A stretch of 37,787 bases of DNA from Ruminococcus sp. (GTDB lineage Bacteria; Bacillota; Clostridia; Oscillospirales; Ruminococcaceae), in NCBI GenBank assembly GCA_017441505.1, contig JAFRXL010000056.1:1-37787 (forward strand), in the 5' to 3' direction. Positions 2,186-25,656 of the stretch are shown here, in pieces (position 1 is the stretch's first letter; the number at the start of each line of letters is the position of its first letter). The notes under the pieces are model-generated. The model was not told the DNA's origin. It searched no databases and saw only the letters and a program-made list of their open reading frames with translations. A program made the position numbers and the translations under genes.

Positions 2186-3445
2186 TTATAATAAATTTAT
2201 TAACTTGTAAACTTCACTCGCCAGATAAAGTGAACCGCACACAACTGCGATACCGTCATTTTCTGCTGCAAGTGACTTTGCTTTTTCTATCGCTCCCACA
2301 AGCTCGTCCGTTTCAGCTTCTGTGTAGAATGAAGCGATGTCCACGATGTTTTCAGCCGGAACAGCATTCGGAGCAAAGCCCTCTACTGCGAACAATCGGC
2401 TCGAATTCCTTGAAATAGTCTTTACACATTCAACATAGTCCTTGGAGTCTATCATTCCAATGACTGTGTATATTTTTTTGCCTCTTGTACTGAGATACAT
2501 CAGCATCAGCGAAAGCATATTCACTCCAGCCGGATTATGTCCGCCGTCAATTATCATCGGAGGCTCTCCGTCTATGTAGTGGACTCTCGCCTTGACCTGA
2601 GTTGTCTCTATAGCTTTGATGATGTTTCCATCGCTTACCTCAAATCCCTTTTTACGCAGGTACAGACAAGCGGTTATAGCTGCCTGAGCGTTGTACTTCT
2701 GGTGTATCCCTGGCATCGCCGGAGTTATTTTCACTCCCCTGTACATAAACGGAGCAAAAAGTCCGCCGTCTGAGAAAGGCTTGCATGGTTCACACGGAAT
2801 GTACTCAGCTCCGACCTCTTTCGCAGTATTCTTTACTATCTCAGTGACCGCAGGCGGATTGTCCTCAGCAAGTACGACCGCCGAGCCGCCCTTGATTATG
2901 CCGGCTTTCTGGACTGCAATCTTCTCCACAGTGTCTCCGAGTATCGCAGTATGGTCGAGCGAGATCGAGGTTATGACCGACACCAGCGGCGGAGGTATTA
3001 CATTTGTGGAGTCGAGAAGTCCGCCCATACCGGTCTCAAATACCACCACGTCGCAATTCTGCTGCTCATACCATAGGAGTGCGATAGACATTGTTATCTC
3101 GAACTGAGAGTAAGGTCTGTCCTCAACCTTTTCTTTCACCTGCTCCGCTATTTTGCAAAGAGACTCATCGTCAATATCCCTGCCGTTGATCCTTATGCGG
3201 TCGTTGTACCTGAGCACAAACGGAGATGTGAACTGTCCTGTTTTATAACCTGAAAGGATAAGTGCATTTGATATGTATTCCAGTGTCGAGCCTTTTCCGT
3301 TAGTACCGGCTATATGTACGAATTTAAGCCTTTTTTCCGGCGAGCCTATCCGATCCATAAGCTCCTTTGCACGGGAGAGGTCGGTAATTTTTCCGCCGGT
3401 CTTGGTATAGGAATTAATAAATCCCATTGCTTCATTATAGTTCAT
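2186..3445 (-). CDS. folC: Folylpolyglutamate synthase / dihydrofolate synthase
   Basis: FolC adds glutamate to (dihydro)pteroate and folates in an ATP-dependent cytoplasmic reaction that retains folates in the cell. The 419-residue product has the family's usual length. It shows the P-loop HIAGTNGKGST (about residues 44-54), the acidic/serine motif GMGGLLDSTNV, the SISLDHTAILG segment, QKAGIIKGG and the C-terminal ligase-domain motif IDGGHNP. I chose the ATG at 3445, since GGAGA lies 5-6 nt upstream; an in-frame TTG four codons earlier would overlap that ribosome site. It is the last gene of the valS-GNAT-Dabb run, separated from the Dabb gene by a hairpin with a U-tract that may partly uncouple it. 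Confidence 0.95.
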   Translation of the reverse strand: MNYNEAMGFINSYTKTGGKITDLSRAKELMDRIGSPEKRLKFVHIAGTNGKGSTLEYISNALILSGYKTGQFTSPFVLRYNDRIRINGRDIDDESLCKIAEQVKEKVEDRPYSQFEITMSIALLWYEQQNCDVVVFETGMGGLLDSTNVIPPPLVSVITSISLDHTAILGDTVEKIAVQKAGIIKGGSAVVLAEDNPPAVTEIVKNTAKEVGAEYIPCEPCKPFSDGGLFAPFMYRGVKITPAMPGIHQKYNAQAAITACLYLRKKGFEVSDGNIIKAIETTQVKARVHYIDGEPPMIIDGGHNPAGVNMLSLMLMYLSTRGKKIYTVIGMIDSKDYVECVKTISRNSSRLFAVEGFAPNAVPAENIVDIASFYTEAETDELVGAIEKAKSLAAENDGIAVVCGSLYLASEVYKLINLL

Positions 3446-3455
3446 AATAATCTCC

Positions 3456-3490
3456 AAAAAACGCAGCGGCGAGTAAAAAACTCGCCACTG
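3456..3490 (-). terminator. Intrinsic terminator directly upstream of folC
   Basis: On the minus strand, CAGTGGCGAGT (3490-3480), a TTTTT loop and ACTCGCCGCTG (3474-3464) form an 11-bp stem with one wobble pair. It is followed by CG and six T residues that run straight into the folC ribosome site (3451-3455). It would end the valS-Dabb transcript or attenuate folC. Confidence 0.8.
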
Positions 3491-4330: not shown

Positions 4331-6949
4331 TTACTTGAAAGCTGCGATAGACTGCTCTATCTTAGCCATTTTCTCCTCAGCCTTTGCGAGCTTAGCCTTC
4401 TCAGCTTCGATGAGCTGTGCAGGAGCTTTCGCAATGAATCCCTGATTATTGAGCTTTCCGCTGAGGAAGTCGATGTCCTTCTGGACCTTAGCCTTTTCCT
4501 TTTCAAGACGAGCTATCTCCTTGTCCTTATCAACAAGCTCGTCCATAGGGATGAATATACGAGCAGCGTCTGTAACAGCATTTGCACAGTTCTCGTGTTC
4601 AAGACTTGCACCGACTTCAACTGTTGATGCAGAAGCGAGCTTCTCGAAGAATACTGAGCAGCTCTTGAAAATCTCTGGCTCAGCAGTCTCGATTATGAGC
4701 TTAGCCTTCTTTGAAGGCGGTACGTTCATGTCAGTACGAACGTTTCTTACAGCCTTGATAGCTGAGATGACCTTCTCAAACGCAGTTTCCTCGGCAGTGA
4801 AGTCGATAGAAGCGTCGTAAGTCGGATATGTTTCGAGGATAATCATGGACTTCTCATTGTTGAGAACCTGCCATATCTCCTCTGTGATGAACGGCATGAA
4901 TGGGTGGAGAAGTTTCAGCATTCCCTGCATTGCCCATACAAGTACAGCCTGAGCCTTAGCCATTGTCTCGCCGCCAGCCTGAATTCTTGGCTTGGTAAGC
5001 TCGATGTACCAGTCGCAGTAAACGTCCCAGATGAAGTCGTATATCTTCTGTGAAGCAACGCCGAGCTCGTACTTGTCGAGGTTCTCGTTAACTTCCTTAG
5101 CGAGCTGATTGAACTTGTTTACGAGCCACTTGTCCTCTAATTCGAGGTCAGCAGGAAGTCCCTTGAACTCAAAGTCCTCAGGGAGATTCATCATGATGAA
5201 ACGTGAAGCATTCCAGAGCTTATTTGCAAAGTTACGTGCAGCCTTTACCTTGTCATCGATATAACGCATATCGTTTCCAGGGGAGTTACCTGTTGCGAGC
5301 ATGAATCTGAGTGCGTCTGCACCGTATTCGTTGATGACCTCAAGCGGGTCGATACCGTTTCCGAGTGACTTGGACATCTTTCTGCCCTGTGCATCACGTA
5401 CAAGACCGTGGATGAGGACTGTATCAAATGGTACTTTGCCCATATTTTCAAGTCCGCTGAACATCATTCTGATTACCCAGAAGAATATGATGTCATATCC
5501 TGTTACGAGGGTATTTGTTGGATAGAAGTAGTCGAGATCGGCAGTCTTTTCCGGCCAGCCGAGTGTTGAGAATGGCCAGAGTGCTGAGCTGAACCATGTA
5601 TCAAGAGTATCAGGGTCCTGTCTCATTGGCTTTCCGCACTTAGGACAAACTGCTCCGCTCTCCTTAGTTACGACCATTTCGCCGCACTCGTCGCAGTAGA
5701 ATGCAGGTATCTGATGTCCCCACCAGATCTGACGGGAGATACACCAGTCACGGATATTATCGAGCCAGTGGAAATATATCTTGTCAAAACGCTCAGGTAC
5801 GAACTTTGTTGCACCGCTCTTTACTGCTTCAATTGCAGGAGCTGCAAGAGGCTTCATCTTAACGAACCACTGAGTTGATACCTTTGGCTCGACTGTTGTT
5901 CCGCAGCGGTAGCAAGTACCTACGTTATGGCTGTAGTCCTCTATTTCAACGAGAGCACCCTCAGCTTCGAGGTCTTCAACTATCTTCTTTCTTGCCTCAT
6001 ATCTGTCCATTCCTGCATAAGCCGGATAGTCGTCAACGATAGTAGCGTCATCGTTCATAACGTTGATAACAGGGAGGTTGTGGCGGAGACCTACTTCAAA
6101 GTCGTTAGGGTCATGTGCAGGAGTTATCTTAACAACACCTGTACCGAAGTCCATTTCAACATAATCGTCAGCAACGATAGGTATCTCACGGTGAACAAGC
6201 GGAAGTATGACCATTTTGCCAACGAGATCCTTGTAACGCTCGTCAGCAGGATTTACAGCTACAGCAGTATCTCCGAGGAGTGTCTCCGGACGTGTTGTAG
6301 CGAGTTCAAGATAATCGTCTGAATCCTTTATCTTATAGCGGAGATGCCAGAAATGTCCAGCCTGATCCTCGTAAGTTACCTCAGCATCAGAGAGTGAGGT
6401 CTTACATTTCGGACACCAGTTTATTATACGCTCGCCACGATAGATAAGTCCTTTTTCGTAATACTTTACGAATACTTCCTTAACGGCTTTTGAGCATCCC
6501 TCGTCCATAGTGAAACGCTCTCTTGACCAGTCGCAGGATGAACCGAGCTTTTTAAGCTGTTCAACGATACGTCCGCCGTACTGTTTCTTCCAAGCCCAAG
6601 CTCTTTCCATGAAGCCTTCTCTGCCGAGGTCTTCTTTGGTAACGCCCTCTTTACGCATAGCCTCAACTATCTTTGCTTCTGTAGCGATAGCAGCGTGGTC
6701 AGTACCCGGAAGCCAGAGTGCACTGTAGCCGCTCATTCTCTTCCAACGGATAAGTATATCCTGAAGAGTTTCATCAAGAGCGTGTCCCATGTGGAGCTGT
6801 CCGGTTATGTTCGGAGGCGGGATAACTATTGTATAAGGTGTTTTCTTAGGGTCAACTTCTGCTCTGAAGCAGCCTTTTTCATTCCATGCAGCATAGATCC
6901 TGTCCTCGAAGTCCTTAGGATCGTAAGCTTTTGCCAATTCTTTTGCCAT
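4331..6949 (-). CDS. valS: Valyl-tRNA synthetase
   Basis: ValS charges tRNA-Val with valine. The 872-residue product has the expected class I features. HMGH (residues 53-56, after PPPNITGQL) is the HIGH signature and KMSKS (524-528) the second nucleotide-binding signature. Between them lie the CP1 editing domain (TTRPETLLGDTAVAVNP) and zinc-type cysteine pairs (CDECGE, CPKCGK). An anticodon-binding domain follows, then the C-terminal coiled coil (about 805-870) that is typical of ValRS and touches the tRNA. Transcription starts about 320 nt upstream and passes through a T-box leader with a valine specifier, so expression should rise when tRNA-Val is uncharged. It is first in an operon with the GNAT and Dabb genes. 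Confidence 0.98.
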   Translation of the reverse strand: MAKELAKAYDPKDFEDRIYAAWNEKGCFRAEVDPKKTPYTIVIPPPNITGQLHMGHALDETLQDILIRWKRMSGYSALWLPGTDHAAIATEAKIVEAMRKEGVTKEDLGREGFMERAWAWKKQYGGRIVEQLKKLGSSCDWSRERFTMDEGCSKAVKEVFVKYYEKGLIYRGERIINWCPKCKTSLSDAEVTYEDQAGHFWHLRYKIKDSDDYLELATTRPETLLGDTAVAVNPADERYKDLVGKMVILPLVHREIPIVADDYVEMDFGTGVVKITPAHDPNDFEVGLRHNLPVINVMNDDATIVDDYPAYAGMDRYEARKKIVEDLEAEGALVEIEDYSHNVGTCYRCGTTVEPKVSTQWFVKMKPLAAPAIEAVKSGATKFVPERFDKIYFHWLDNIRDWCISRQIWWGHQIPAFYCDECGEMVVTKESGAVCPKCGKPMRQDPDTLDTWFSSALWPFSTLGWPEKTADLDYFYPTNTLVTGYDIIFFWVIRMMFSGLENMGKVPFDTVLIHGLVRDAQGRKMSKSLGNGIDPLEVINEYGADALRFMLATGNSPGNDMRYIDDKVKAARNFANKLWNASRFIMMNLPEDFEFKGLPADLELEDKWLVNKFNQLAKEVNENLDKYELGVASQKIYDFIWDVYCDWYIELTKPRIQAGGETMAKAQAVLVWAMQGMLKLLHPFMPFITEEIWQVLNNEKSMIILETYPTYDASIDFTAEETAFEKVISAIKAVRNVRTDMNVPPSKKAKLIIETAEPEIFKSCSVFFEKLASASTVEVGASLEHENCANAVTDAARIFIPMDELVDKDKEIARLEKEKAKVQKDIDFLSGKLNNQGFIAKAPAQLIEAEKAKLAKAEEKMAKIEQSIAAFK

Positions 6950-7013: not shown

Positions 7014-7272
7014 TAAAAAGCCCCGAACCTTTAACGGTTCAGGGCGAACTAATGTCCGTGTTACCACCTGAATTCGGATATTTCTATCCGCACTCTGCGA
7101 GACCTTACAGCCTCCTCCCCTGTAACGTGAGGAACACGTCACGGACTACTGCTGTTTCACCCGTGAAGCTCCGAAACTACTTCCGCATCCTCCTCACACC
7201 GCTTTGCACCAGACAACGGCTCTCTGTAGATCAGACAAATGCGTACTCCTTTTCATCTCAGCTTTTAAGATA
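7014..7272 (-). promoter_or_regulatory. T-box leader (valine specifier) of valS
   Basis: On the minus strand this leader contains the stem I element ACAGAGAGCC (near 7223-7232), then GGAAGTAGTTTC, in which GTA (7180-7178) after GAA is in specifier position. Further on comes the T-box core CAGGTGGTAACACGGA (7070-7055), where NCCA of uncharged tRNA would pair. It ends with the terminator GCCCTGAACC (7045-7036) / GGTTCGGGGC (7029-7020) and T-run. GTA is a valine codon, in agreement with valS downstream. Uncharged tRNA-Val is expected to stabilise the antiterminator. Confidence 0.93.
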
Positions 7273-13407: not shown

Positions 13408-15570
13408 TTATTTTATAAGCATTCTTCTCATTTTAACAATATCGAAACCGTCTAAAGTACCGTCGCTGCAAAGGTCGCCGAGTATCTGGTCATCAGGAGC
13501 TATAGCTGATTGTCCGAGGATATGACGCTGAAGTGATACGAGGTCAGCGATGTTTGTACTTTCGTCCATATTTACGTCACCGAGCGAGTATTTACACTCA
13601 GGCACTTCATTTTGTTTGAAGGAATGCAGGTTGGAGTATTTATAAATATTCCAGAATGAATGATTGTTCTTTTCTTTTTTGATCTCACGGTCGGGTTTGA
13701 GGAACCATTTATACGAGATGTTATCGCTGTCATCCCAAGTGGTATCTACGTGGAAATAGTGACCGCCGAGCTTCACTATATTCCATGCATGGGTATTATT
13801 GCAGACAGTGTAGCTTTCGATACCGGCTTCACGCAGAAGCAGGTCATAAGCATTTGAGTAGCCCTGACACTGAGTGGAATCGAAGAAGAAAAGTCCGTTA
13901 TCAGAATTATTTTGTACCAGAGCATGGGAGTCTTCATAGTTATACTCTGTATTGCTGCATACCCAGTCGTGAAGTATTTTCACCTTTTGTATATCAGGCA
14001 TATCAGGAGTTGTATTTTCTGCGACGATCTTTTTTACCTGAGCTTTTATATAGTCGTCAATAAAGCCGACTCTTTCAGCATTATTGAAATTTCTGATGAT
14101 ATATTCACGATACTCCGGTATGAATTCAGCTGTCTCGCTGTTGACGATGGTCTGGGAGTTTATGCTTTTTAGTTCCGTACATCCGGAAAAAATTGAGCCG
14201 TCTATATCATATTCAGTATTGATATTTATATTATCTATCGGACACCATGCAAATGCTTTCCATTCAGCAGTTAAGCGTCCGCCTACACCAATGTTTCTTA
14301 GTGATTCGCAGTTCTTGAAAGATTCCTTACCGAAATTGGCATCTCCGGTCGCAGTAACTTCATTCAGTTCTTTGCAATTGTTGAACGACGTAATACCTGT
14401 CTGTAAGTTTCCGTTTACGATAAGCTTTTGCAATTTAGTATTTGTAAAGGAATCGGAATATATCTGAACATCGCAATTTTCCGGGAAATTTATTTCTTCC
14501 AGTGATGTACAGTTTTTGAATGCTTCGTCTTTGATTTCTATTTTTGCAGGGTTACCGGTTATGTTGATCTTTTTTAATGCTTCACAGCTATAGAAATTAT
14601 CCGAAATCAGTGTTTCGGGACTGTTCAGACTTATCTCTTCTATAGCTGAATATCTTAATCTTGCCGGACTATCCAGTTTATCTACTGCTAACAGAGAGGC
14701 ATTTTCTCCCTGAACGTCTAACTTTTTAAGATTTTTGGCAAGTTCAAAATCCATTTTGATCCTTTTAACATTCGGCGGGAATGTTATAGAAGTGATAGTG
14801 TTCAGCCTTTCATCTGGGAAATTGAATTCACAGCCGATTATCGGAATATCATATACGATGCCGGGGACTGTAACATCTCCAGCCTCCATTGGATAATCTA
14901 TCAGTACAGCTTTCATGGTCTTGCCGAAGTCATATGGCATTACCCGCAATTCGTAATCTCCTAATCTGATGTTGAAATTGGAGGATGAATCGATGATATA
15001 GTTCTCATCCTCATAATCTATACCTTTTTCTCTGAGCCAATCCGGCATTTCGTAATCGGTATCTTCAAAAGCATAGCCGTCACATATCATGATATCATCA
15101 TGATAGTTCACTTCTTTAAGGTTTTCACAGCCTTCAAAAGTTCGGCATGGTATAACTTTCAGGCTTTTAGGTATATTCACTGTTTCCACTGAAGAACCAG
15201 AAAAAATACCTTCTCCGAAATAGTATATAGAATCCGGCAAAGTAACATTTTTGATAGATTTGTTATCGCTAAAAGCGTAATCACGTATGCCCTCAACTTT
15301 ATGTCCCTCTACATACTCAGGTACTACAACGTCCGATTCATTTCCGGTATACACAAAAAGCATAAATGGACCGTTTTCGTTTGTATATCTATAGGTAGGT
15401 TGAACAAAGATCATATTATTATATTCAATAGGATTTCCCAAAAAGGAAAAATCTGTGTAATTTCCTCCATTATATGTATTTTCAACTGCTGAAACCTTTT
15501 CAACATTGATTTTTGGAGCTGAAAATACGAGCATTACTGCTGAAACGCAAAGTGCAAATATTTTTTTCAT
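13408..15570 (-). CDS. Secreted leucine-rich repeat / transglutaminase-like / dockerin protein (copy 2)
   Basis: This 720-residue protein opens with a signal peptide (MKKIFALCVSAVMLVFSAP). BspA-type leucine-rich repeats run from about residue 80 to 500, with recurrent C-x-x-L-x-x-I/V and F-x-N-C-x-S-L-x-x-I elements. A transglutaminase-like domain follows with the triad Cys568 (TQCQGYS), His594 (THAWN) and Asp609 (HVDTTWDD). The type I dockerin spans 661-720, with loops DVNMDESTNIADLV and DLCSDGTLDGFDIV. The dockerin implies attachment to a cohesin-bearing scaffold. The intact triad suggests protease, cross-linking or peptide-modifying activity outside the cell. It is a tandem paralogue of the next gene upstream, 18 nt away, and precedes a CPBP protease gene. 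Confidence 0.93.
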   Translation of the reverse strand: MKKIFALCVSAVMLVFSAPKINVEKVSAVENTYNGGNYTDFSFLGNPIEYNNMIFVQPTYRYTNENGPFMLFVYTGNESDVVVPEYVEGHKVEGIRDYAFSDNKSIKNVTLPDSIYYFGEGIFSGSSVETVNIPKSLKVIPCRTFEGCENLKEVNYHDDIMICDGYAFEDTDYEMPDWLREKGIDYEDENYIIDSSSNFNIRLGDYELRVMPYDFGKTMKAVLIDYPMEAGDVTVPGIVYDIPIIGCEFNFPDERLNTITSITFPPNVKRIKMDFELAKNLKKLDVQGENASLLAVDKLDSPARLRYSAIEEISLNSPETLISDNFYSCEALKKINITGNPAKIEIKDEAFKNCTSLEEINFPENCDVQIYSDSFTNTKLQKLIVNGNLQTGITSFNNCKELNEVTATGDANFGKESFKNCESLRNIGVGGRLTAEWKAFAWCPIDNININTEYDIDGSIFSGCTELKSINSQTIVNSETAEFIPEYREYIIRNFNNAERVGFIDDYIKAQVKKIVAENTTPDMPDIQKVKILHDWVCSNTEYNYEDSHALVQNNSDNGLFFFDSTQCQGYSNAYDLLLREAGIESYTVCNNTHAWNIVKLGGHYFHVDTTWDDSDNISYKWFLKPDREIKKEKNNHSFWNIYKYSNLHSFKQNEVPECKYSLGDVNMDESTNIADLVSLQRHILGQSAIAPDDQILGDLCSDGTLDGFDIVKMRRMLIK

Positions 15571-15588: not shown

Positions 15589-17670
15589 TTATTTTTGTTG
15601 TATTATCATACGTCTCATTTTAATTATGTCGAAACCGTCGAGTATGCCGTCACTGCAAAGGTCACCGAGAATCTGGTCGCCCTGAGCTATAGTGGACTGT
15701 CCCAGTACATGACGCTGGAGGGAAACGAGATCGGCAATATTGGTATTTCCGTCCATATTGACATCGCCCATTGAGTATCTGCACTCAGGAAGTTCAGATT
15801 TCTGAAATGAATGCAGAGCTGAAGGTATCCTTGTCTCCCATGATGCGTGAGCCGAGCTTTCTTCGGCTATTTCCTTGTCTGATTTAAGGAACCAATCGTC
15901 CGTACCTGTATCAAAATCGTCCCATGTGGTATCGACATGGAAATAGTGACCGCCAAGCTTTATGACGTTCCATGCGTGGGAGTCGCTGTTTACTACATAA
16001 GTTTCAATACCGGCTTCGTGCATAAGGAGGTTGAAAGCGTTTGCGTATCCCTGACACTGTGTCGAGCCATAGAAGAACACACCGGCGTCTGTGAATAATT
16101 GTGCAAACGACTTATTATCGTATTCATAAACAGTATTGCTGCAAACCCAGTCGTGAAGCACCTTTGCTTTCTGTACATCTGACATATCAGCGGTAATGTT
16201 ATCTTTCACGGTCTTTTTAACATTAGCCATAATGAAATCGTTGATAAATCCGACATTTTCAACACCGTAAAAGCTATTCATTATAAAATCCTTGAATTCC
16301 GGCTTGAAATCCGCTTTTTCATCATCTACCGGAGATATTGAATTTATAGTTTTCAGCTCAGAACATCTGCTGAACCATTTGCCGTCTATGTCATTGGATA
16401 TATCAATGTTGATATTGGATAATCCGCATCCGGAGAAAGTATCATTTTTTGCAGAAAGAGTACCTTCCACAGTCAGATCATTAAGGGAGCTGCAGTTCTC
16501 AAAACAGCCTTTGTCTAAATATGCGTCACCTTTTATCACAACGTTTTTCAGGTCTTTGCAGTTCTTGAAAGAATAGTATTTTGTTTTAAGGTCTCCGTCA
16601 ATAACGAGTTCTTTGATTCCGGTATTGAAGAATGCAGATGCTTGTATATCAACATCGAAGTTGTCCGGCAAAATAAATTCTTCAAGTGAAGTGCAGTTGT
16701 AAAATGCACTGTCATATATTGTGATTTTATTGGAATCAGTTTTGCTTATGACTTTTGCTAAAGGACTCCAGTTGCCGAGAGCGTTGGACACCATATTGTT
16801 CGTGCTGTCTGAGGCAGTTCCCTCGGCAGGATCACTGCCGTTTTGAAATTCTATTTTTTTAAGATTTTTAGCTTCTTTGATGTCGATATAAATATCTTGT
16901 ACACATGGCGGGAAAGTAAGAGAAGTAAGTTTATCATCAGTTATTTCAAGAGAAACTGTGTATATTTCGATCCCTTCAACACTTTCAGGGATAGTAAGAT
17001 CTGCTTCATTTATAGGGTATGCACATAATGATGCAGCGTATTTCCTTCCGAGATCTAAAGGAAGTACGATCAAAACTACATCACCTATACATAATTCAAA
17101 TGTAGAGGAACAGGTTATAGGAAGGAATTCGTTTCCGCCGGATATATTCAGCCGTTCTGGTATTTCGATTGACGTGCCTGAGAAAGCGGACGCATCAGCT
17201 GCGATTATATCATCATGAAATTTGACCTCTTTAAGGTTAGTGCAGTCTGTAAATGTGTTCATAGGTATGACTCTTAGGCTTTCAGGTATATTTATAGACT
17301 CTAATGATGAATTTTCAAAAACACTATTTCCAAAATAATACATTGAATCGGGCAAGTTTATTTTTTTGATCGTGTTATTATTTTTAAAAACTTCATTGTC
17401 TATACCGATAACGGGGATACCGTTTATTTCTTCGGGGATAGTTATTTCTGTTTCGTTTCCGGAATATCCTGTAACAGCGAGTGTTTGAGTGTGAGCACCC
17501 GGAGTCTGAAATGTGGAATGGATATATGAATATGAAAGCCCGCCGGTCATAGGACCTGACTCAGATGCGGCGTTGATAGCAGGGGCTCTGTATTGGAAGC
17601 TGTTAAGCGGTACTGTCAGAAGTGACGCTGAAATACACAGCGACAGCAATATTTTTTTAGTTATTTTCAT
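15589..17670 (-). CDS. Secreted leucine-rich repeat / transglutaminase-like / dockerin protein (copy 1)
   Basis: This 693-residue paralogue of the downstream gene has the same layout. A signal peptide (about residues 1-35) is followed by BspA-type leucine-rich repeats and then the transglutaminase-like domain with Cys539 (TQCQGYA), His565 (SHAWN) and Asp580 (HVDTTWDD). A type I dockerin occupies about 632-693 (DVNMDGNTNIADLV and DLCSDGILDGFDII). The catalytic and dockerin parts are nearly identical between the copies, while the repeat parts have diverged, as expected when repeats choose different partners. AAAGGAG lies upstream of the ATG. It is first in an operon with the second copy and the CPBP protease gene, from a consensus promoter. 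Confidence 0.93.
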   Translation of the reverse strand: MKITKKILLSLCISASLLTVPLNSFQYRAPAINAASESGPMTGGLSYSYIHSTFQTPGAHTQTLAVTGYSGNETEITIPEEINGIPVIGIDNEVFKNNNTIKKINLPDSMYYFGNSVFENSSLESINIPESLRVIPMNTFTDCTNLKEVKFHDDIIAADASAFSGTSIEIPERLNISGGNEFLPITCSSTFELCIGDVVLIVLPLDLGRKYAASLCAYPINEADLTIPESVEGIEIYTVSLEITDDKLTSLTFPPCVQDIYIDIKEAKNLKKIEFQNGSDPAEGTASDSTNNMVSNALGNWSPLAKVISKTDSNKITIYDSAFYNCTSLEEFILPDNFDVDIQASAFFNTGIKELVIDGDLKTKYYSFKNCKDLKNVVIKGDAYLDKGCFENCSSLNDLTVEGTLSAKNDTFSGCGLSNINIDISNDIDGKWFSRCSELKTINSISPVDDEKADFKPEFKDFIMNSFYGVENVGFINDFIMANVKKTVKDNITADMSDVQKAKVLHDWVCSNTVYEYDNKSFAQLFTDAGVFFYGSTQCQGYANAFNLLMHEAGIETYVVNSDSHAWNVIKLGGHYFHVDTTWDDFDTGTDDWFLKSDKEIAEESSAHASWETRIPSALHSFQKSELPECRYSMGDVNMDGNTNIADLVSLQRHVLGQSTIAQGDQILGDLCSDGILDGFDIIKMRRMIIQQK

Positions 17671-19282: not shown

Positions 19283-20020
19283 ATGATAAAAGTTGCTATA
19301 TGTGATGATAATGAGTTAACGCTGGTTTCCGTGAAAGAATATGTTGATAAAGGCTTTTCGGCTTATACCGACGATTATTCCATTAATAGCTATACAAACG
19401 GACAATTGATGCTGCAAGACAATGAGCAGACACCTTTTGATGTGATGTTTCTGGACATCGATATGCCTGAGATAAGCGGATTTGATATAGCCAAAAAGCT
19501 AAGGAGCGATTTTTCAAGATGCTTTATAATCTTTATTACGAGCCATTCAAATCTCGTTTATAAGAGCTTTGATTTCCAGCCTTTCAATTTTATCCAGAAA
19601 GACCCTCCGGAGAGCCTTTGCGAGAATATCGGCTCTGTAATAGCCAAGCTCATGGAGCATATGAAGCAGAATGAAAAAATAATCATAGATAACGGAAGCA
19701 AACCGATAGTTGTATATTATCATAATATAATCTACGTTGAGAGCGATAAGCATTATCTTAAACATTTTATCCAGAATCAGGAGTCGCCGCTGCTTGTTAG
19801 AGGCTCGATCAATGATAAAGAGACAGAATTTGAAAAATACGGTTTCATAAGAATTCACAGGAAATTTATAGTCAACCTTAAATTCATAAATTTTGTTGAC
19901 GTAAAGATAGGAAAGGTCTACATAAACTACAACGGCACAAGAAAGTCTCTTCCTATGGGCAACAGCTACAGAGACAATGTTGAGAAAAAATATACAGAAT
20001 ATCTGAGGGATACATTATGA
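19283..20020 (+). CDS. agrA: LytTR-family response regulator (AgrA-like)
   Basis: This 245-residue regulator has a receiver domain (1-120) and a LytTR DNA-binding domain (about 135-240). The acidic pocket DD (residues 8-9), the phosphoacceptor Asp58 in FLDIDMPEISG, and the conserved threonine in FITSHSN are visible. The LytTR part shows the family's IIYVESDKHYLKHF and YGFIRIHRKFIVNLKFI. Such regulators bind paired direct repeats about two helical turns apart, and exactly such repeats precede agrB and a second promoter in this locus. It overlaps the kinase gene by 4 nt (ATGA). The AgrA name rests on context with AgrB/AgrD; homologues elsewhere are called ComE, VirR or PlnC. Confidence 0.92.
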   Translation: MIKVAICDDNELTLVSVKEYVDKGFSAYTDDYSINSYTNGQLMLQDNEQTPFDVMFLDIDMPEISGFDIAKKLRSDFSRCFIIFITSHSNLVYKSFDFQPFNFIQKDPPESLCENIGSVIAKLMEHMKQNEKIIIDNGSKPIVVYYHNIIYVESDKHYLKHFIQNQESPLLVRGSINDKETEFEKYGFIRIHRKFIVNLKFINFVDVKIGKVYINYNGTRKSLPMGNSYRDNVEKKYTEYLRDTL

Positions 20021-21348
20021 CGGATATTTTATGGGATATTTTTGAGATAAGTGTAACTTTTTTTCAGGGATTTATAATGATATATTTCCCGTTTAAATTC
20101 CTGAACGGAAAATTTTCGGACAGCTTCCTGCAAAATCACGGAGCAATGTTCTCGGTGCTGTTGTCGGGGCTTGTGTGCCTTTTTAATAAAGTGACGGTGT
20201 TTGAGCACTTTCTGTTTATCTTTTACATATTACTGATATTTATATACTGCGTTTTGTGTCTTAACGGAAGTTTGATGAATAAGCTTTTTGCTTCTATAGT
20301 GCCTGTTGTAATAGCTTTGACAGTCACCATTCTTGCTGCCGGAGGTTCAGCAGTATTGTTCAATACCTCGATGAGCGATGTAATGTCGAAGCATAATACT
20401 CAGCGAGCGATAACGGTAATAATGGCTCAATTTCTATTTTTGTATATGCACATGATAACGCTGAATATCTTCAAAAAACATTCAGGTAATGGATATCAGT
20501 TATCAAGGAATGAATGGCTTCTCGTATCTTTTACTCTGACACTTAGTATAGTGCTCGGAGTATTATTTGTGCTTATCTCGTTTGATGAACTTAGCTACAG
20601 AAGCCGCATATACATCCTTTTAGGTATACTTACCCTGCTTATCATAAATACAGTTTCTATTTACCTTATTATAGACCTCGGAAGGAAAAATCATACTGTC
20701 AGGGAAAACGAAAAGCTGAAGCTTCAGATGGCATATTATCAGAACTATGTTGAAAACGCAAACACTGAGTTCAATCTGATTCAGAAGCTTCGTCACGACA
20801 GTAAGGCGATATATCAGGTGCTCGGAGATTTCCTTGCAAGGGGAGAGATAGACAAGGCTAACAGCTATCTTAGAAAGTTGACTGATATTGCTGATGACAG
20901 AATAATCTTCATCAACACTGAAAACGATTTTGCGAATTCTATCATAAATGCACGTCTTACAATGGCGAAATCCTTTGGTATACACGCTTCATGCCTGTCC
21001 GTAAACAATTTTGAGGGTATTGACGATACTGACCTTTGCCGTCTGCTGTCAAATATGCTTGATAATGCGATCACCGCAACATCACAGTCTGCTGCAAAGG
21101 AAAAGAAGATAACTGTAAATATCTCCGAAGAAATAGGAACTTACAGGTTCCTTGTGTGCAATACGATAGATGAATCGGTGCTTGAAAAAAATCCGGAGCT
21201 TAATTCTACAAAGAAGAACAAAAAAGTCAGCGGATACGGCACGAAGATTATCAAAGATCTTGCTGAGAAATATCACGGTAAATGTGACTTTTATGAGAGA
21301 GAGTCTCTTTTCTGTTGCTTAGTTATATTAAATACGGATAAAAAGTAA
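20017..21348 (+). CDS. agrC: GHKL sensor histidine kinase (AgrC-like)
   Basis: This 443-residue membrane kinase has about six hydrophobic helices in residues 1-225, the polytopic peptide-sensing part typical of AgrC. A coiled linker follows, then the dimerisation helix with His260 (QKLRHDSKAIYQ). The GHKL ATPase domain has the N-box NMLDNAITAT and the G-box VSGYGTKIIKDLAEKYHG. It should autophosphorylate on binding the cyclic peptide and pass phosphate to Asp58 of the regulator whose gene overlaps its start. A strong terminator ends the unit, so the sensing pair is transcribed apart from agrBD. Confidence 0.92.
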   Translation: MTDILWDIFEISVTFFQGFIMIYFPFKFLNGKFSDSFLQNHGAMFSVLLSGLVCLFNKVTVFEHFLFIFYILLIFIYCVLCLNGSLMNKLFASIVPVVIALTVTILAAGGSAVLFNTSMSDVMSKHNTQRAITVIMAQFLFLYMHMITLNIFKKHSGNGYQLSRNEWLLVSFTLTLSIVLGVLFVLISFDELSYRSRIYILLGILTLLIINTVSIYLIIDLGRKNHTVRENEKLKLQMAYYQNYVENANTEFNLIQKLRHDSKAIYQVLGDFLARGEIDKANSYLRKLTDIADDRIIFINTENDFANSIINARLTMAKSFGIHASCLSVNNFEGIDDTDLCRLLSNMLDNAITATSQSAAKEKKITVNISEEIGTYRFLVCNTIDESVLEKNPELNSTKKNKKVSGYGTKIIKDLAEKYHGKCDFYERESLFCCLVILNTDKK

Positions 21349-21371
21349 ATATTTATCTTATATACTACAAT

Positions 21372-21414
21372 ACAATGGTTTGTTTGGAATAAAAAACAAA
21401 CCATTGTGTTTTTG
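21372..21414 (+). terminator. Terminator between agrAC-like and agrBD units
   Basis: ACAATGGTTTGTTT (21372-21385) and AAACAAACCATTGT (21394-21407) form a perfect 14-bp stem with an 8-nt loop and the tail GTTTTTGT. It separates the kinase/regulator transcript from the peptide transcript. Confidence 0.88.
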
Positions 21415-21421
21415 TATAAAA

Positions 21422-21487
21422 ATTTCGTGCCTAAAAAAACGATTTCGTGCCAAAACTATAGACAAAATTATAATTATGTTGTAAAAT
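21422..21487 (+). promoter_or_regulatory. agrBD promoter with paired LytTR-type direct repeats
   Basis: ATTTCGTGCC occurs at 21422-21431 and 21442-21451 (period 20 bp). It is followed 17 nt from the second repeat start by TAGACA (21459-21464), a 17-nt spacer and TAAAAT (21482-21487). Paired direct repeats at two-turn spacing next to a weak -35 box are the known binding layout for LytTR activators. The likely activator is the AgrA-like protein encoded upstream. The same module recurs at 22839-22904. Confidence 0.85.
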
Positions 21488-21527
21488 AAGATTAATGTAT
21501 GCAAGAGATAATAGAAAGGTGATATAA

Positions 21528-22118
21528 ATGATAAAGCATATCAGTAATAAGCTGGTTCGTTATCTTATCTCATCGGAAGTCATAGATGATAACGCTGACT
21601 GTATTGATTATTATAGATATGGCTTTGAGATCACAATTTCGTCGCTTCTTAATATTGTAATCATTCTTATAATAGGAGCACTAATGCATCATTTTCTGGA
21701 GAGCGTTGCCTTTTTGCTGTGTTTTATACCGGTAAGGCAGTTCACCGGAGGATACCATGCGGATACTTACTTAAAATGTAATGCCAGTTTTGCTATACTA
21801 TTCTCACTATTGATTCTGATATTTTCACTTACTGTAAATTACATAACAGACTATGCAGTTTTAGCCATGATAATATTCAGCCTTACAGTATTCATATCAG
21901 AATGTCCTGTTGAAAATCCGAACAAGAAACTAAATAACGATCAGAAAAAAAGAAGTAAAAAAATCGCAGTACTACTTGGAACAATATTCGGTATATTAGG
22001 ACTGATCTCCGAGATTAAATCATTTGCATTGGGACTTATATTCCCATATACCTTAGTACTTATCTCACTTTTAGTCATAGTTGCAGCATTAAAAAAAATC
22101 AGAGAGGAGGAAGCGTGA
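21528..22118 (+). CDS. agrB: AgrB-like peptide-processing membrane protease
   Basis: AgrB cleaves the AgrD precursor in the membrane and helps close its ring. The 196-residue protein has the usual size and about five or six membrane helices. The catalytic pair is visible as His77 and Cys84 in RQFTGGYHADTYLKCN, the most conserved AgrB motif. AAAGGTGA (21515-21522) precedes the ATG. The stop codon overlaps the agrD start by one base (TGATG), so translation of the two is coupled. Expression should depend on the direct-repeat promoter just upstream. Confidence 0.95.
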   Translation: MIKHISNKLVRYLISSEVIDDNADCIDYYRYGFEITISSLLNIVIILIIGALMHHFLESVAFLLCFIPVRQFTGGYHADTYLKCNASFAILFSLLILIFSLTVNYITDYAVLAMIIFSLTVFISECPVENPNKKLNNDQKKRSKKIAVLLGTIFGILGLISEIKSFALGLIFPYTLVLISLLVIVAALKKIREEEA

Positions 22119-22258
22119 TGAAAAATAATAAAATGACCGCTTCAGTATTAAAGAAAGTTGCAGGAAAGATGGCAGATGTCAGCTGCAGATCAGCTTCTAT
22201 TTTTGGTTTACACCAGCCAAAGGAGCCTGCAAAGTACGTTGCTAAGAACAACAAGTGA
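22118..22258 (+). CDS. agrD: AgrD-like cyclic (thio)lactone autoinducer precursor, 46 residues
   Basis: The gene starts at the ATG overlapping the agrB stop, with GAGGAGGAAG upstream. The 46-residue product has an amphipathic, basic N-terminal helix (KMTASVLKKVAGKMADV), a ring region SCRSASIFGL (22-31) and the conserved recognition tail HQPKEP (32-37), then a lysine-rich end. This is the layout of AgrD-type precursors, where AgrB cuts just before the tail. Aligned on the tail, the ring position five residues before HQPKEP is Ser27, which would give a Ser-Ile-Phe-Gly-Leu lactone. Cys23 could instead start a larger thiolactone. The short length explains why simple gene finding would miss it. 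Confidence 0.9.
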   Translation: MKNNKMTASVLKKVAGKMADVSCRSASIFGLHQPKEPAKYVAKNNK

Positions 22259-22518
22259 AGCACGCATGAAAGGAATATCTGAGATTCCTTTTAAGTCAAA
22301 TGATCCGTATGTCACTGTTCAGTCCCTCATAAACAAAGAATCCAAAGACTATATATCCAATACTTAACACGTCTGACGATCTTGAAAATAATTCAGTAAA
22401 ATCACACTATTTAACTTGTATTATTTACATATCATTTAAATCAAAAAACGAGGGACTGGATAGTTACATTAAGAATACGTTTACTACTGTGAGCATTGCG
22501 TTTGAGCAATGCTTTTTT
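22259..22518 (+). ncRNA. Structured 3' region of the agrBD transcript
   Basis: After the agrD stop the transcript continues 260 nt without a convincing gene. It holds the element TCACTGTTCAGTCCCTCA (22312-22329), of which 22314-22328 can pair fully (15 bp, two G-U pairs) with GAGGGACTGGATAGT at 22450-22464. This encloses about 120 nt, and a terminator follows at once. A small local hairpin AAAGGAA/TTCCTTT lies at about 22269-22292. The same element, long-range pairing and terminator order recur in the second Agr-type transcript, which argues for a conserved RNA domain. Function is inference. Confidence 0.55.
22492..22518 (+). terminator. Terminator of agrBD transcript
   Basis: AGCATTGC (22492-22499) and GCAATGCT (22506-22513) with a 6-nt loop, followed by TTTTTT. 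Confidence 0.85.
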
Positions 22519-22528
22519 ATTGTCTGAA

Positions 22529-22566
22529 CGTCTGTGCTGAGGAGCTTTGGTACAGACGATTTTTTC
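22529..22566 (+). terminator. Second, back-up terminator after agrBD
   Basis: CGTCTGT (22529-22535) and ACAGACG (22552-22558) enclose a 16-nt loop and are followed by ATTTTTTC. Between here and 22838 (about 270 nt) I see no gene or strong signal. Confidence 0.7.
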
Positions 22567-22838
22567 ATCGCAACACTATACGATTTTGTGATATGGTCAT
22601 AGTAATGATCCGCAGATTCAGCTATAGATGCCACTTGTTTTCAGCTTTTAGTGCAGAGTAAAGAATTTAATGAATTATAATATAGTTAAAATTATACGGC
22701 TGGGATTATTGACACTTTTTCGATAATAGTCAATTATGTTACGATGATTTATGCTATATCACAGTCTAAATGCACAAATGAGTGTGCGATAAAAGCTGTT
22801 AGTATGACATAATATCCAAAAGGATTTTTTCAATGAAA

Positions 22839-22904
22839 ATTTCGTGCCAGAAAAAACGATTTCGTGCCAAAAGTATAGACAAACGGGAAAATATGGTGTA
22901 AAAT
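22839..22904 (+). promoter_or_regulatory. Second LytTR-type promoter (P3-like)
   Basis: ATTTCGTGCC at 22839-22848 and 22859-22868 (period 20), TAGACA at 22876-22881, a 17-nt spacer and TAAAAT at 22899-22904. Every spacing equals that of the agrBD promoter, and the core repeats, -35 and -10 are identical in sequence while the spacer has diverged. That is the pattern expected for selection on regulator and polymerase sites. No gene of clear quality lies downstream before a terminator at 23371. Confidence 0.85.
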
Positions 22905-23070
22905 AAAATCATGGTAAAGGACAGATGAAAACAAACCTCAGATTCTTCCTTATCCATAATAGTTTTGTTAATATCACTGTTCAGTCCCTCAGATGCATTA
23001 AACTTTTTATCAACTACTCAATACTAAATCTCACACTTTCAATTTACTAAGTTTTATTCTAATTTCTATC

Positions 23071-23190
23071 TTAATCATCGCAGTTCTAAATGTAATAATA
23101 ATGATCGTTCATCGTCTGAAAATCATCTTAGCTTTAGTTTTAACAACAATATTTACATAGTGTCATTTAATCATCGCAGTTTTTGATCTA
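23071..23190 (+). repeat. Direct repeat with 96-nt period inside the candidate RNA
   Basis: TTAATCATCGCAGTT occurs at 23071-23085 and 23167-23181. Similarity continues loosely after each copy (TAATAATA a few bases on, and CATCGT/CATCGTT about 35 nt on). It may mark a duplicated stem-loop unit of the RNA. Confidence 0.6.
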
Positions 23191-23370
23191 ATAATAGTGT
23201 TCACACATCGTTCTATGTTATGTTTTAGTTTAAATGTAATATTCTATGTTCCACGTCACTTCCCGATCTACTAATTATTTCAATAACAGTTTTAGCGGTA
23301 CTGAAAAAAACTTCTTATCCAAGAGGGGCTGAATGGTCATATTATTGCTTGTATGTTCATCTTGTAAGAG

Positions 23371-23400
23371 ACTCCATTGCGTGTGCAGTGGAGTTTTTTG
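23371..23400 (+). terminator. Terminator of the second Agr-type transcript
   Basis: ACTCCATTGC (23371-23380), loop GTGT, GCAGTGGAGT (23385-23394, one wobble pair), then TTTTTTG. An AT dinucleotide run follows (about 23402-23416). Confidence 0.88.
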
Positions 23401-23441
23401 TTATATATATATATAATGTCGAAGAAACATTGATTTCTTTA

Positions 23442-23613
23442 GGAGACGCCCTCTCGTGCAGGGCGTCTCCTCTTCAAAAACAGTCCACCGGACTGTTTTT
23501 GAATTCACCACTTGCGGAGCGTTTAGAGGCTATATGCGAGGCTTTGCCCCACACCCCACAAGGACTGTCAGCCCTTGACCTGACCAAAGGGTTAATAAAC
23601 CCTTTGGAATCCC
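23442..23613. repeat. GC-rich hairpin cluster, probable dispersed intergenic repeat
   Basis: Three near-perfect hairpins are strung together: GGAGACGCCCT/AGGGCGTCTCC (23442-23470), AAAAACAGTCC/GGACTGTTTTT (23476-23500) and CCAAAGGG/CCCTTTGG (23584-23607). Between them is a GC-richer segment with GAGGCTTTGCCCCACACCCC. The composition differs sharply from the AT-rich RNA region before it. Similar segments recur in many gut Firmicute genomes as intergenic repeats, as far as I recall; no second copy lies in this window. Confidence 0.55.
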
Positions 23614-23658
23614 ATTATTGTGGTCATTCTTTCATTTTATAGTTTTTCAACAGACTGA

Positions 23659-23692
23659 AATGCTGGACTATTTTCAAGTCCAGCATTTTTGT
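23659..23692. terminator. Terminator between repeat region and alcohol dehydrogenase gene
   Basis: AATGCTGGACT (23659-23669) and AGTCCAGCATT (23677-23687) form a perfect 11-bp stem with a 7-nt loop. The T-run TTTTTGTTT favours the plus strand, but the stem also ends the convergent operon. Confidence 0.8.
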
Positions 23693-23699
23693 TTCATAT

Positions 23700-24881
23700 T
23701 CAGATAAGTTCAGGGTCAACAGCTATTTTGTAAATTGCAGTAATATCATCTGCCGAAAGCTTTACGAATCCGCCTGTTCTGCCGCTGCCTATACCAAATT
23801 TATCGACAAGAGCAGGGATGTCCTCAGCTTTTGCACCGAGTTCCTCGAAAGTAAGAGGCATACCGATGCTGCGGAGGAATCTGCGGAATCTGACTATTCC
23901 TTCTCTTGCGGTATTTTCAGGCTCTTCAAAGTCCATCTGACAACCCCATATGCGGGTTGCTGCCTGAGCAAAACGCAGTGGATTGTGCTTGTATACGAAC
24001 TCCATCCATGCCGGCATAATTACAGCAAGTCCTGCACCGTGAGCACAGTCGTACAGTGCGGAGAGCTCGTGCTCGATACCGTGGCTGTTCCAGTCCTGTT
24101 CTCTGCCAACTCCGACTATGTTTGTGTGAGCTACAGTTCCAGCCCACATGATATTAGCTCTTGCATCGTAGTTATCAGGGTCAGCGATAACTCGTGGAGT
24201 CTCCTTTATCATGGTCAGGAGCACAGCTTCGCAGAGCCTGTCTGTTATCTCGACCTCAGTTGTGTTGGTAAAGTATCTCTCAAATACGTGAGCCATTATA
24301 TCTGTTGCACCGCAGGCAGTCTGATAAGGCGGCAGAGTGCAGGTAAGCTCAGGGTCCATTATGGAAAACTTCGGACGGATAAGGTCAGAACCTGCACCAC
24401 GTTTGAGTCCGCCGTCTTCCTTAGTGATAACAGAATCGCCGGAGCCTTCACTTCCGGCAGCAGCAATTGTGAGTACCGTAGCTACAGGCAGAGCCGCTTT
24501 TGGACTTTTGCCGGAATAGAAGTCCCAGAAATCGCCGTCATATGGAACGCCCATTGCTATTGCCTTAGCAGAATCGATAACAGAACCTCCGCCGACAGCA
24601 AGTATGAAATCGATATTTTTCTTACGGCAGAGTTCTATACCTTCGTAAACGAGGGTATCTCTCGGATTTGGCTTAACTCCGCCAAGCTCTGAATATGAGA
24701 TGCCTTCTTTTTCGAGAGAAGCCCTGACTTTGCCGAGCAGACCGCTCTTTACTGCTGAGCCTCCTCCGAAGTGGAGCAAAACGTTAGTGCCGCCATGCTT
24801 TTTCACGTAATATCCTGCCTCATTTTCTGTGCCCTTGCCGAATACAAATTCTGTAGGACTGAAAAACTGAAAATTATTCAT
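23700..24881 (-). CDS. Iron-containing alcohol/aldehyde dehydrogenase (BdhA/YqhD type)
   Basis: This group III, metal-dependent, NAD(P)H-linked dehydrogenase probably reduces aldehydes or butyraldehyde to alcohols. The 393-residue product opens with NNFQFFSPTEFVFGKGTE and has the nucleotide motif GGGSVIDSAKAIAMG. Metal ligands are visible as an Asp and three His in CGATDIMAHVFERYF, GIEHELSALYDCAHGAGLA and nearby. I chose the ATG at 24881 because AAGGAGAGG lies upstream and family similarity begins there; a longer upstream frame would overlap the SDR gene. It is last in the operon MATE-epimerase-SDR-ADH, 13 nt after the SDR gene. The physiological substrate is unknown. Confidence 0.94.
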   Translation of the reverse strand: MNNFQFFSPTEFVFGKGTENEAGYYVKKHGGTNVLLHFGGGSAVKSGLLGKVRASLEKEGISYSELGGVKPNPRDTLVYEGIELCRKKNIDFILAVGGGSVIDSAKAIAMGVPYDGDFWDFYSGKSPKAALPVATVLTIAAAGSEGSGDSVITKEDGGLKRGAGSDLIRPKFSIMDPELTCTLPPYQTACGATDIMAHVFERYFTNTTEVEITDRLCEAVLLTMIKETPRVIADPDNYDARANIMWAGTVAHTNIVGVGREQDWNSHGIEHELSALYDCAHGAGLAVIMPAWMEFVYKHNPLRFAQAATRIWGCQMDFEEPENTAREGIVRFRRFLRSIGMPLTFEELGAKAEDIPALVDKFGIGSGRTGGFVKLSADDITAIYKIAVDPELI

Positions 24882-24894
24882 AGTTATCCTCTCC

Positions 24895-25656
24895 TTAAAG
24901 TCCGATAGTTCCGGTGTAGACCGGTATTTCTGATTCAGCCTTAGCAACTGCTTCTTCAAGGCTGAGTCCATAGAAATCGCTTGCAGCGAAATTTCTGCCG
25001 GAACGCTTATCATCTATGAAAGCTCCGACAACAACGCCCGGGATCGAGCTTTCAGGTGCATTAGGAGCTTTAGGTCCGCCAAGATCAGTTCTGCACCAGC
25101 CCGGATCGGTAAGATTGATGCAGACATCAGTGCCATTGTATTTGGAAGCTATGTCCATAGTTACCTTATCGAGTGCAGCTTTGCTTGCACTGTAGCCAGC
25201 CTGTTCAGGTTCAAGACGGATGCCGCTTGTGGTATTGACGATACGTCCGAAACCACGCTTCTCCATCAGCGGCAGGAAGTGGTAAACTATCATCATAGGA
25301 GCGATAGTGTTTATCTGGAAGCTGTCAACATAATCAGAGATCGGAGTTGTCAGGTAGTCAGTGCGGTAAGCTATCTGGATACCGGCATTATTCAGTACTA
25401 TATCAACATCAACACCAAGAGCGTCTATTTCTTTGAGCATCTTTTCGACCTGTGCCGGATCGGAGAACTCAGCTCCTACAGTATAAGCCTCAACACCGAG
25501 AGCCTTTACCTCAGCAAGCACCTTTTCACAGTGCTGTGCAGTTCTTCCCTGAAGTATCAGATTACAGCCCTGCTTAGCCAGACATAAAGATGCTCCGTAG
25601 CCGATACCTCTTGCCGCACCTGTAACGAGTGCCCAGCGTCCTTTTACATTTATCAT
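24895..25656 (-). CDS. Short-chain dehydrogenase/reductase
   Basis: This 253-residue classical SDR oxidises or reduces an alcohol/carbonyl with NAD(P). The cofactor motif TGAARGIGYG (TGxxxGxG), the NNAG motif in VLNNAGIQ, the catalytic serine in NTTSGIRLE and the YSASKAALD (YxxxK) active site are all present. The C-terminal NLTDPGWCRTDLGG is also typical. The ATG at 25656 has AAAGGAGG upstream and overlaps the end of the epimerase gene by 4 nt. With the neighbouring alcohol dehydrogenase and epimerase it suggests handling of reactive carbonyl or sugar compounds, perhaps exported by the MATE pump. Confidence 0.93.
   Translation of the reverse strand: MINVKGRWALVTGAARGIGYGASLCLAKQGCNLILQGRTAQHCEKVLAEVKALGVEAYTVGAEFSDPAQVEKMLKEIDALGVDVDIVLNNAGIQIAYRTDYLTTPISDYVDSFQINTIAPMMIVYHFLPLMEKRGFGRIVNTTSGIRLEPEQAGYSASKAALDKVTMDIASKYNGTDVCINLTDPGWCRTDLGGPKAPNAPESSIPGVVVGAFIDDKRSGRNFAASDFYGLSLEEAVAKAESEIPVYTGTIGL

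Follow-up and report, generated by a model that had tools for sequence, protein, structure and literature searches.

Candidate quorum-controlled RNAs sharing a long-range clamp helix in the agr system of a Ruminococcus sp. genome

In a 37,787-nucleotide stretch of Ruminococcus sp. DNA (contig JAFRXL010000056.1 of assembly GCA_017441505.1; hereafter the window), the segment from 22911 to 23400 has features that make it reasonably probable, on its sequence, that it specifies a quorum-controlled regulatory RNA belonging to a three-member family whose RNAs are each closed by the same helix, here called the clamp. We refer to this segment as unit B, to the 3' end of agrBD as unit A, and to a third, unlinked copy as unit C. 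Together, the three units probably form a small family of quorum-controlled RNAs specific to this lineage, as judged from a comparison of three paralogues within one 79.55%-complete assembly. The relevant features of the window are as follows.

13408 to 15570 and 15589 to 17670, minus strand: two adjoining dockerin-type proteins near agr, with BspA-type leucine-rich repeats and a transglutaminase-like domain
19283 to 20020, plus strand: agrA-type response regulator with a LytTR domain (PF00072 and PF04397), the probable activator
20017 to 21348, plus strand: agrC-type sensor kinase (GHKL; PF14501)
21423 to 21487, plus strand: LytTR-type repeats and promoter of agrBD (unit A), with repeats at 21423-21451, the -35 at 21459 and the -10 at 21482-21487
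21528 to 22118, plus strand: agrB (PF04647, E 1.3e-38)
22115 to 22258, plus strand: agrD (TIGR04223, 35.7 bits against a cut-off of 19; no Pfam match)
22309 to 22328, plus strand: 5' strand of the unit A clamp, in the 3' region of agrBD
22329 to 22449, plus strand: G-poor loop of unit A, 121 nt, 6.6% G
22450 to 22469, plus strand: 3' strand of the unit A clamp
22491 to 22514, plus strand: terminator of agrBD and unit A, from a terminator consensus scan
22840 to 22868, plus strand: tandem LytTR-type repeats of unit B, TTTCGTGCC-N11-TTTCGTGCC (copies at 22840-22848 and 22860-22868), from an exact-pair search
22876 to 22904, plus strand: unit B promoter, with -35 TAGACA (22876-22881), a 17-nt spacer and -10 TAAAAT (22899-22904)
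22911 to 23400, plus strand: RNA B, a putative transcript (about 490 nt) proposed from promoter, terminator and absence of a coding signal
22970 to 22990, plus strand: 5' strand of the unit B clamp, containing the box CTGTTCAGTCCCTC
22991 to 23322, plus strand: G-poor loop of unit B, 332 nt, 9.6% G
23323 to 23343, plus strand: 3' strand of the unit B clamp, 21 nt identical to that of unit C
23371 to 23399, plus strand: intrinsic terminator of unit B, with a 10-bp stem (23371-23380/23385-23394) and six T (23394-23399)

The agr genes lie on one strand in the order agrA-agrC-agrB-agrD (19283 to 22258), and the locus of unit B contains a LytTR response regulator (PF04397 within 19283 to 20020). 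Consistent with the LytTR-type promoter proposed for unit B in a preliminary description of this DNA, tandem TTTCGTGCC repeats are positioned 7 nt upstream of TAGACA-17-TAAAAT. A search of the assembly with unit B returned unit B itself, the agrBD promoter (84% identity to the unit B promoter region across 77 nt), and a site at C35:16785. Units A, B and C have a common geometry of 9-nt repeats with a 20-nt period, the second repeat ending 7 nt before the -35, and all three possess paired direct repeats just upstream of the -35, a feature of LytTR-controlled regulatory RNAs. Exact TTTCGTGCC repeat pairs occur three times in the genome and no more; tolerating 3 mismatches added one genomic site, compared to three sites for a reversed-pattern control. 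Matches to the -35 and -10 hexamers alone were at chance (15 in the region versus 12.2 +/- 3.5 in shuffles); it is the TTTCGTGCC repeats, not the hexamers, that mark the promoter. Proximity leads us to infer that these repeats are bound by the AgrA of this locus and not by a different LytTR regulator.

Unit B was also thought to be a discrete transcription unit without a convincing gene and with a strong terminator, and our analysis of 22911 to 23400 upheld these proposals. The longest open reading frame encodes 41 amino acids, a length that 589 of 1000 dinucleotide-shuffled sequences equaled or surpassed, and this frame had no match in Pfam or NCBIfam. The terminator is a 10-bp hairpin with six T (23371 to 23399), the first T of the run closing the stem. 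This hairpin was not among the sites listed by the terminator consensus scan, probably since its stem pairs into the T-run as well. The predicted fold of the whole RNA was no better than that of shuffled sequences (z -1.0, with 16 of 100 shuffles equally or more stable). As for the C-rich stretches, most of TTCTTCC pairs with the leader, and most of CTTCCCG stays unpaired. Past unit B, we observed AACCCTTTGGAATCCC (window 23598 to 23613), which occurs again on the minus strand at L037 1655-1670 on contig C29, near the end of another gene, and is perhaps an interspersed repeat.

For unit A, the consensus scan detected no terminator-like sites from the agrD stop to 22491, and the agrBD transcript thus probably reads through unit A to end at the terminator at 22491 to 22514. 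A terminator-like hairpin with 5 pairs lies within agrD itself (22181 to 22195) and is possibly a chance occurrence.

The shared RNA element noted in the preliminary description proved to be the box CTGTTCAGTCCCTC, which is common to units A, B and C and paired in each. Its exact sequence has three genomic occurrences, all of them within putative transcripts with the shared promoter type, and a search with one mismatch yielded one further place, as did the control. The box follows the promoters of units B and C at near-equal distance, starting at 22977 in unit B and at L003 1639 in unit C, 137 nt and 134 nt, respectively, from the first repeat. Unit C, with an expected RNA length of about 300 nt, is an unlinked orphan on contig C35, situated between a divergent gene and a convergent VanZ-like gene; the product of the divergent neighbor looks secreted by eye and has sub-threshold similarity to prenyltransferase toroids. 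The loops between the clamp strands are poor in G (6.6% in unit A, 9.6% in unit B, and 12.2% in unit C versus 19.2% in window positions 20000 to 25000). Loop alignments of A with C and of B with C were no better than shuffles, and that of A with B was slightly high across an AT-rich 25-nt stretch (4 of 200 shuffles equal or better). The leaders and tails of units B and C aligned at chance level. The loops differ while promoter, clamp, and terminator are kept, as expected if the interiors serve different pairing roles or are free to vary.

The long-range pairing suggested for unit B was recovered between 22970-22990 and 23323-23343, and each CTGTTCAGTCCCTC box pairs over its full length with a second strand 121 nt (A), 332 nt (B), or 123 nt (C) later. 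Helices of this quality were attained by none of 200 shuffles for unit A, none of 200 for unit B, and 1 of 200 for unit C. The clamp comprises 20 positions in all three units, with base-pair probabilities of 0.91-1.0 outside a mismatch (0.93-1.0 in unit B). This mismatch, at position 16 counted from the loop, is pyrimidine-pyrimidine in every unit (C-U, C-C, and U-C in A, B, and C). Position 18 has a compensatory change, G-C in unit A and A-U in units B and C; positions 6, 10, 13, and 15 show half-changes (A-U in some units, G-U in others); and all three units have G-U at position 12. On the transcribed strand, 21 clamp positions in A, B, and C contain 17, 17, and 16 Watson-Crick pairs and 2, 3, and 4 G-U pairs, whereas the opposite strand would have 4, 4, and 5 mismatches and no G-U pair. 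This pattern argues for selection on the plus-strand RNA and against inverted repeats at the DNA level.

The pairing was likewise distinctive when approached from other directions. All 14 nt of the box are paired in units A, B, and C, compared to at best 10-12 of 14 at 13 unrelated occurrences. In a blind helix scan that made no use of the box and covered both strands of the window (37.8 kb) plus 5.7 kb of contig C35 in 568 overlapping segments, the three clamps took the second, third, and fourth ranks after overlaps were merged. The top helix of that scan, on contig C35 at about L097 1192-1452, is longer and imperfect. Unlike that of unit B, the whole-RNA folds of unit C (z -7.4, 100 shuffles) and unit A (z -4.3, 200 shuffles) were clearly stable.

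No copy of the unit turned up in the 124 remaining genus genomes or in a sample of 388 genomes from other genera within the family. BLAST of unit B against 125 genus genomes (its own included) produced six short matches in five others, confined to query positions 10-116, which are promoter and leader. The exact 14-mer of the box was present in six other genomes among 396 of the family (including its own and seven others of the genus), with best pairing of 10-12 of 14, and the exact 13-mer in nine others of the 125 genus genomes, with best pairing of 9-11 of 13; all nine foreign 13-mers overlap an open reading frame of at least 100 amino acids on one of the two strands. The promoter-plus-box pattern gave six matches in assembled genome contigs (best pairing 10-12 of 14). 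Zero matches were obtained for the 19-nt 3' strand of the clamp in viral contigs and for the unit B sequence in phages and plasmids. These orthologue searches were keyed to the box and promoter, and copies with both changed would escape them.

AgrB matches were present in 57 of the 125 genus genomes (own included), and comparison of 49 agr loci located AgrB in 48 (own included). A repeat pair with at most one mismatch lies upstream of agrB in 24 of the 48 loci (own included), in three of these at a distance of about 170-200 nt, and the other 24 showed no clear motif; because several contigs end early, this survey is not exhaustive. Second copies of the same motif outside its own neighborhood were, besides that of the window, only matches with 3 mismatches (two in L008 and one each in L015 and L026), and an exact second copy of a locus's own repeat downstream of agrD was seen in the window's locus alone. 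On this distribution, the clamp RNAs look young or fast-changing, much as virT of Clostridium perfringens is reported to be patchy among strains in the available part of PMC2838878.

Several other observations arose from these loci. The tandem-repeat promoters of agr loci differ in sequence across the genus, and single genus genomes carry as many as nine (G030) and eight (G144) AgrB matches. In loci L049, L053, L058, and L064, a second tandem repeat of different sequence (TTTCACTGC-like, by eye) lies roughly 100-400 nt beyond the LytTR-type repeats, an arrangement that possibly represents double quorum promoters. In L020, a degenerate site resembling a promoter lies downstream, and the open frame after it is truncated where the contig stops. 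The agrB matches at G073:C19:184398-184985 and G133:C57:8029-8610 each carry one TGA flag, which may be just the terminal stop, and both loci read as a 600-nt frame, stop included. TAA flags were seen on the agrB matches at G114:C9 and G098:C46.

We also looked for messages with which these RNAs might pair. Target prediction did not support the proposal that the C-rich stretches of unit B pair with dockerin ribosome sites, at least as regards the window's two dockerin genes, whose duplex energies with B and C were inside the shuffle range; both proteins match dockerin at their C terminus, the second falling slightly short of the Pfam cut-off. When B and C were each paired with 16 gene starts from the window (32 pairings, each with 8 shuffled controls), the duplex energies of two pairings beat all 8 shuffles, B with the gene at 2186-3457 and C with the EAL gene, no more than chance. 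Unit C with the agrB start tied with the best shuffle control, and the agrB start was 5.1 (B) and 3.6 (C) kcal/mol below the shuffle mean, making it a weak lead as a duplex partner of B and C. A scan for trans targets of the box identified 14 genomic sites with at most one mismatch to the 3'-strand pattern, six of which are the family itself, and the remaining eight were not in excess of nine reversed-pattern controls. Two of the eight have a frame starting at or just past the site (L126, 193 amino acids; L124, 77 amino acids), both of which look antisense to other genes, and by eye none of the eight has a convincing ribosome site. On contig C37, a 605-amino-acid frame contains a solitary exact match to the 3'-strand pattern. 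Since the box core of unit B is predicted to be fully paired, it is unlikely to serve as a free seed.

The anatomy of the units is what this analysis demonstrates, and from their sequences we infer how they might work. Phosphorylated AgrA would bind the three repeat sites at high cell density and activate agrBD, B, and C together. The clamp would close each RNA into a G-poor loop, and it may stabilize the RNA, provide a docking site for a binding protein or a nuclease of double-stranded RNA (RNase III, for example), or do both. The diverged single-stranded loops could then pair with different messages, and a clamp on the agrBD message would subject that message to handling by the same machinery as B and C.

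A different use of the same helix is conceivable, in which clamp strands act in trans, the 5' box of B or C swapping its pairing with the 3' strand of the agrBD end and the reverse, so that free RNAs tune the agrBD message. All nine combinations of 5' and 3' strands have favorable energies (-25.4 to -28.8 kcal/mol), the box is unchanged over 14 nt with a 3' strand that varies only in G-U-compatible ways, and, family aside, full-length complements in the genome are at control level. The intramolecular partner, however, has the better energy and a base-pair probability of about 1, and it would be kinetically favored once transcribed, and we regard pairing in trans as unlikely. A strand-exchange layer, with interchangeable clamp halves and relative RNA amounts that set cis and trans clamps and hence the fate of the agrBD message, seems to us slightly less likely still. 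Another explanation retains the clamp as a generic stabilizer of mRNA 3' ends and views B and C as duplicates of the agr promoter and such an end that have decayed and regulate nothing. The loops are indeed not clearly related, targets were not found, and unit A is no more than the end of the agrBD message, but promoter, clamp, and terminator are intact in both B and C, and the register of promoter to box is held within 3 nt despite diverged loops, so we give this explanation little credence.

RNAIII encodes delta-haemolysin, and unit B could by the same token be a messenger for the 41-amino-acid peptide at 22925-23050. The frame has an ATG with AAAGGA three bases upstream, and the box reads T-V-Q-S-L in B and in one frame of A. 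Its chance length and lack of a family match speak against translation, as do peptides from A, B, and C that by eye share little past the box, a frame in C that has no ATG start and stops three codons past the box, and a leader fold that pairs most of AAAGGA; a coding role appears very improbable. Even less probable, in our view, is that A, B, and C are remnants of a mobile element or of duplication whose terminal inverted repeats mimic an RNA helix. Ends that are common to the three copies with interiors that are not clearly so would fit such remnants, but B and C share an upstream promoter in register, base changes preserve pairing on the transcribed strand, and neither phage or plasmid matches nor a further complete genomic copy was found. 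The reading that we prefer, by analogy, is that A, B, and C are most likely AgrA-activated effector RNAs comparable to RNAIII, FasX, VR-RNA/VirT/VirU, and SpoZ.

RNAIII is similar in length to unit B, and VirR is a regulator of the LytTR type. The view of unit B as an agr-controlled noncoding RNA is well supported by its sequence and by the unlinked unit C with the same promoter and clamp, and its RNAIII-like aspect gained no support from Rfam, where RNAIII had no match in the window at gathering score or in 21300 to 23700 at E <=5. At the latter threshold, that region gave 10 matches, all under their own gathering scores. At gathering score, the window contained T-box and tRNA matches only; the T-box leader (129 bits, 7037 to 7268, minus strand) immediately precedes a valyl-tRNA synthetase-like gene (4331 to 6949). 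The statement in the preliminary description that no counterpart is described may hold literally for Ruminococcus-type bacteria, for which we found no report of one, but it needs narrowing, as LytTR-controlled RNAs are known in related clostridia and in Streptococcus. Literature on Ruminococcus agr, Ruminococcus small RNAs, and RNAIII-like RNAs of Firmicutes, in a search outside of which many subscription papers lay, did not report such an RNA. For rumen bacteria, the available part of PMC10838665 mentions agr genes with limited evidence.

RNAIII and FasX are described as LytTR-driven regulatory RNAs (PMC3673130, available part). Like unit B, RNAIII has its own AgrA-type promoter beside agrBDCA (available parts of PMC3673130 and PMC3754575). 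RNAIII is divergent from agrBDCA, whereas unit B is on the same strand, downstream of agrD; unit B also lacks an Rfam match, its 41-amino-acid ORF is of chance length, and it is one of three copies that have a clamp in common. According to the accessible text of PMC3754575, no RNAIII transcribed divergently has been identified in Clostridioides difficile 027. FasX of Streptococcus pyogenes is a small RNA with an AgrA-like activator, as proposed for unit B, and it is reported to act on the streptokinase message (PMC3673130, available part); its homology to unit B was checked through the Rfam scan alone.

The clostridial systems offer parallels by description. C. perfringens VirR/VirS drives VR-RNA, virT, and virU via paired direct repeats just upstream of the -35 and resembles the arrangement proposed for units A to C in having several regulatory RNAs, one regulator, and paired repeats; the available part of this source (PMC2838878) mentions neither a shared clamp nor a copy at an agrBD end. 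In C. difficile RgaS/RgaR, one VirR-like regulator activates both agrB1D1 and SpoZ, making SpoZ a small RNA coactivated with agrBD genes (PMC10602386, available part), as is proposed for unit B. In that system, agrB1D1 is without an apparent agrAC and the peptide does not act via RgaS (PMC10602386, available part), whereas here agrAC adjoin agrBD and unit B adjoins agrD. By these analogies, the Ruminococcus RNAs would be of a known kind in their mode of working and different in sequence as far as compared, in the shared clamp, and in the agrBD-borne copy.

Genes of the agr type are common in this genus. The candidate regulon of three units, two of them apparently pure RNA, would provide a small set of targets for cell-density signaling in dockerin-carrying bacteria. 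The shared RNA clamp would tie effector RNAs to the message of the signaling operon itself, and these findings suggest that agr may have gained an RNA arm anew in a further lineage.
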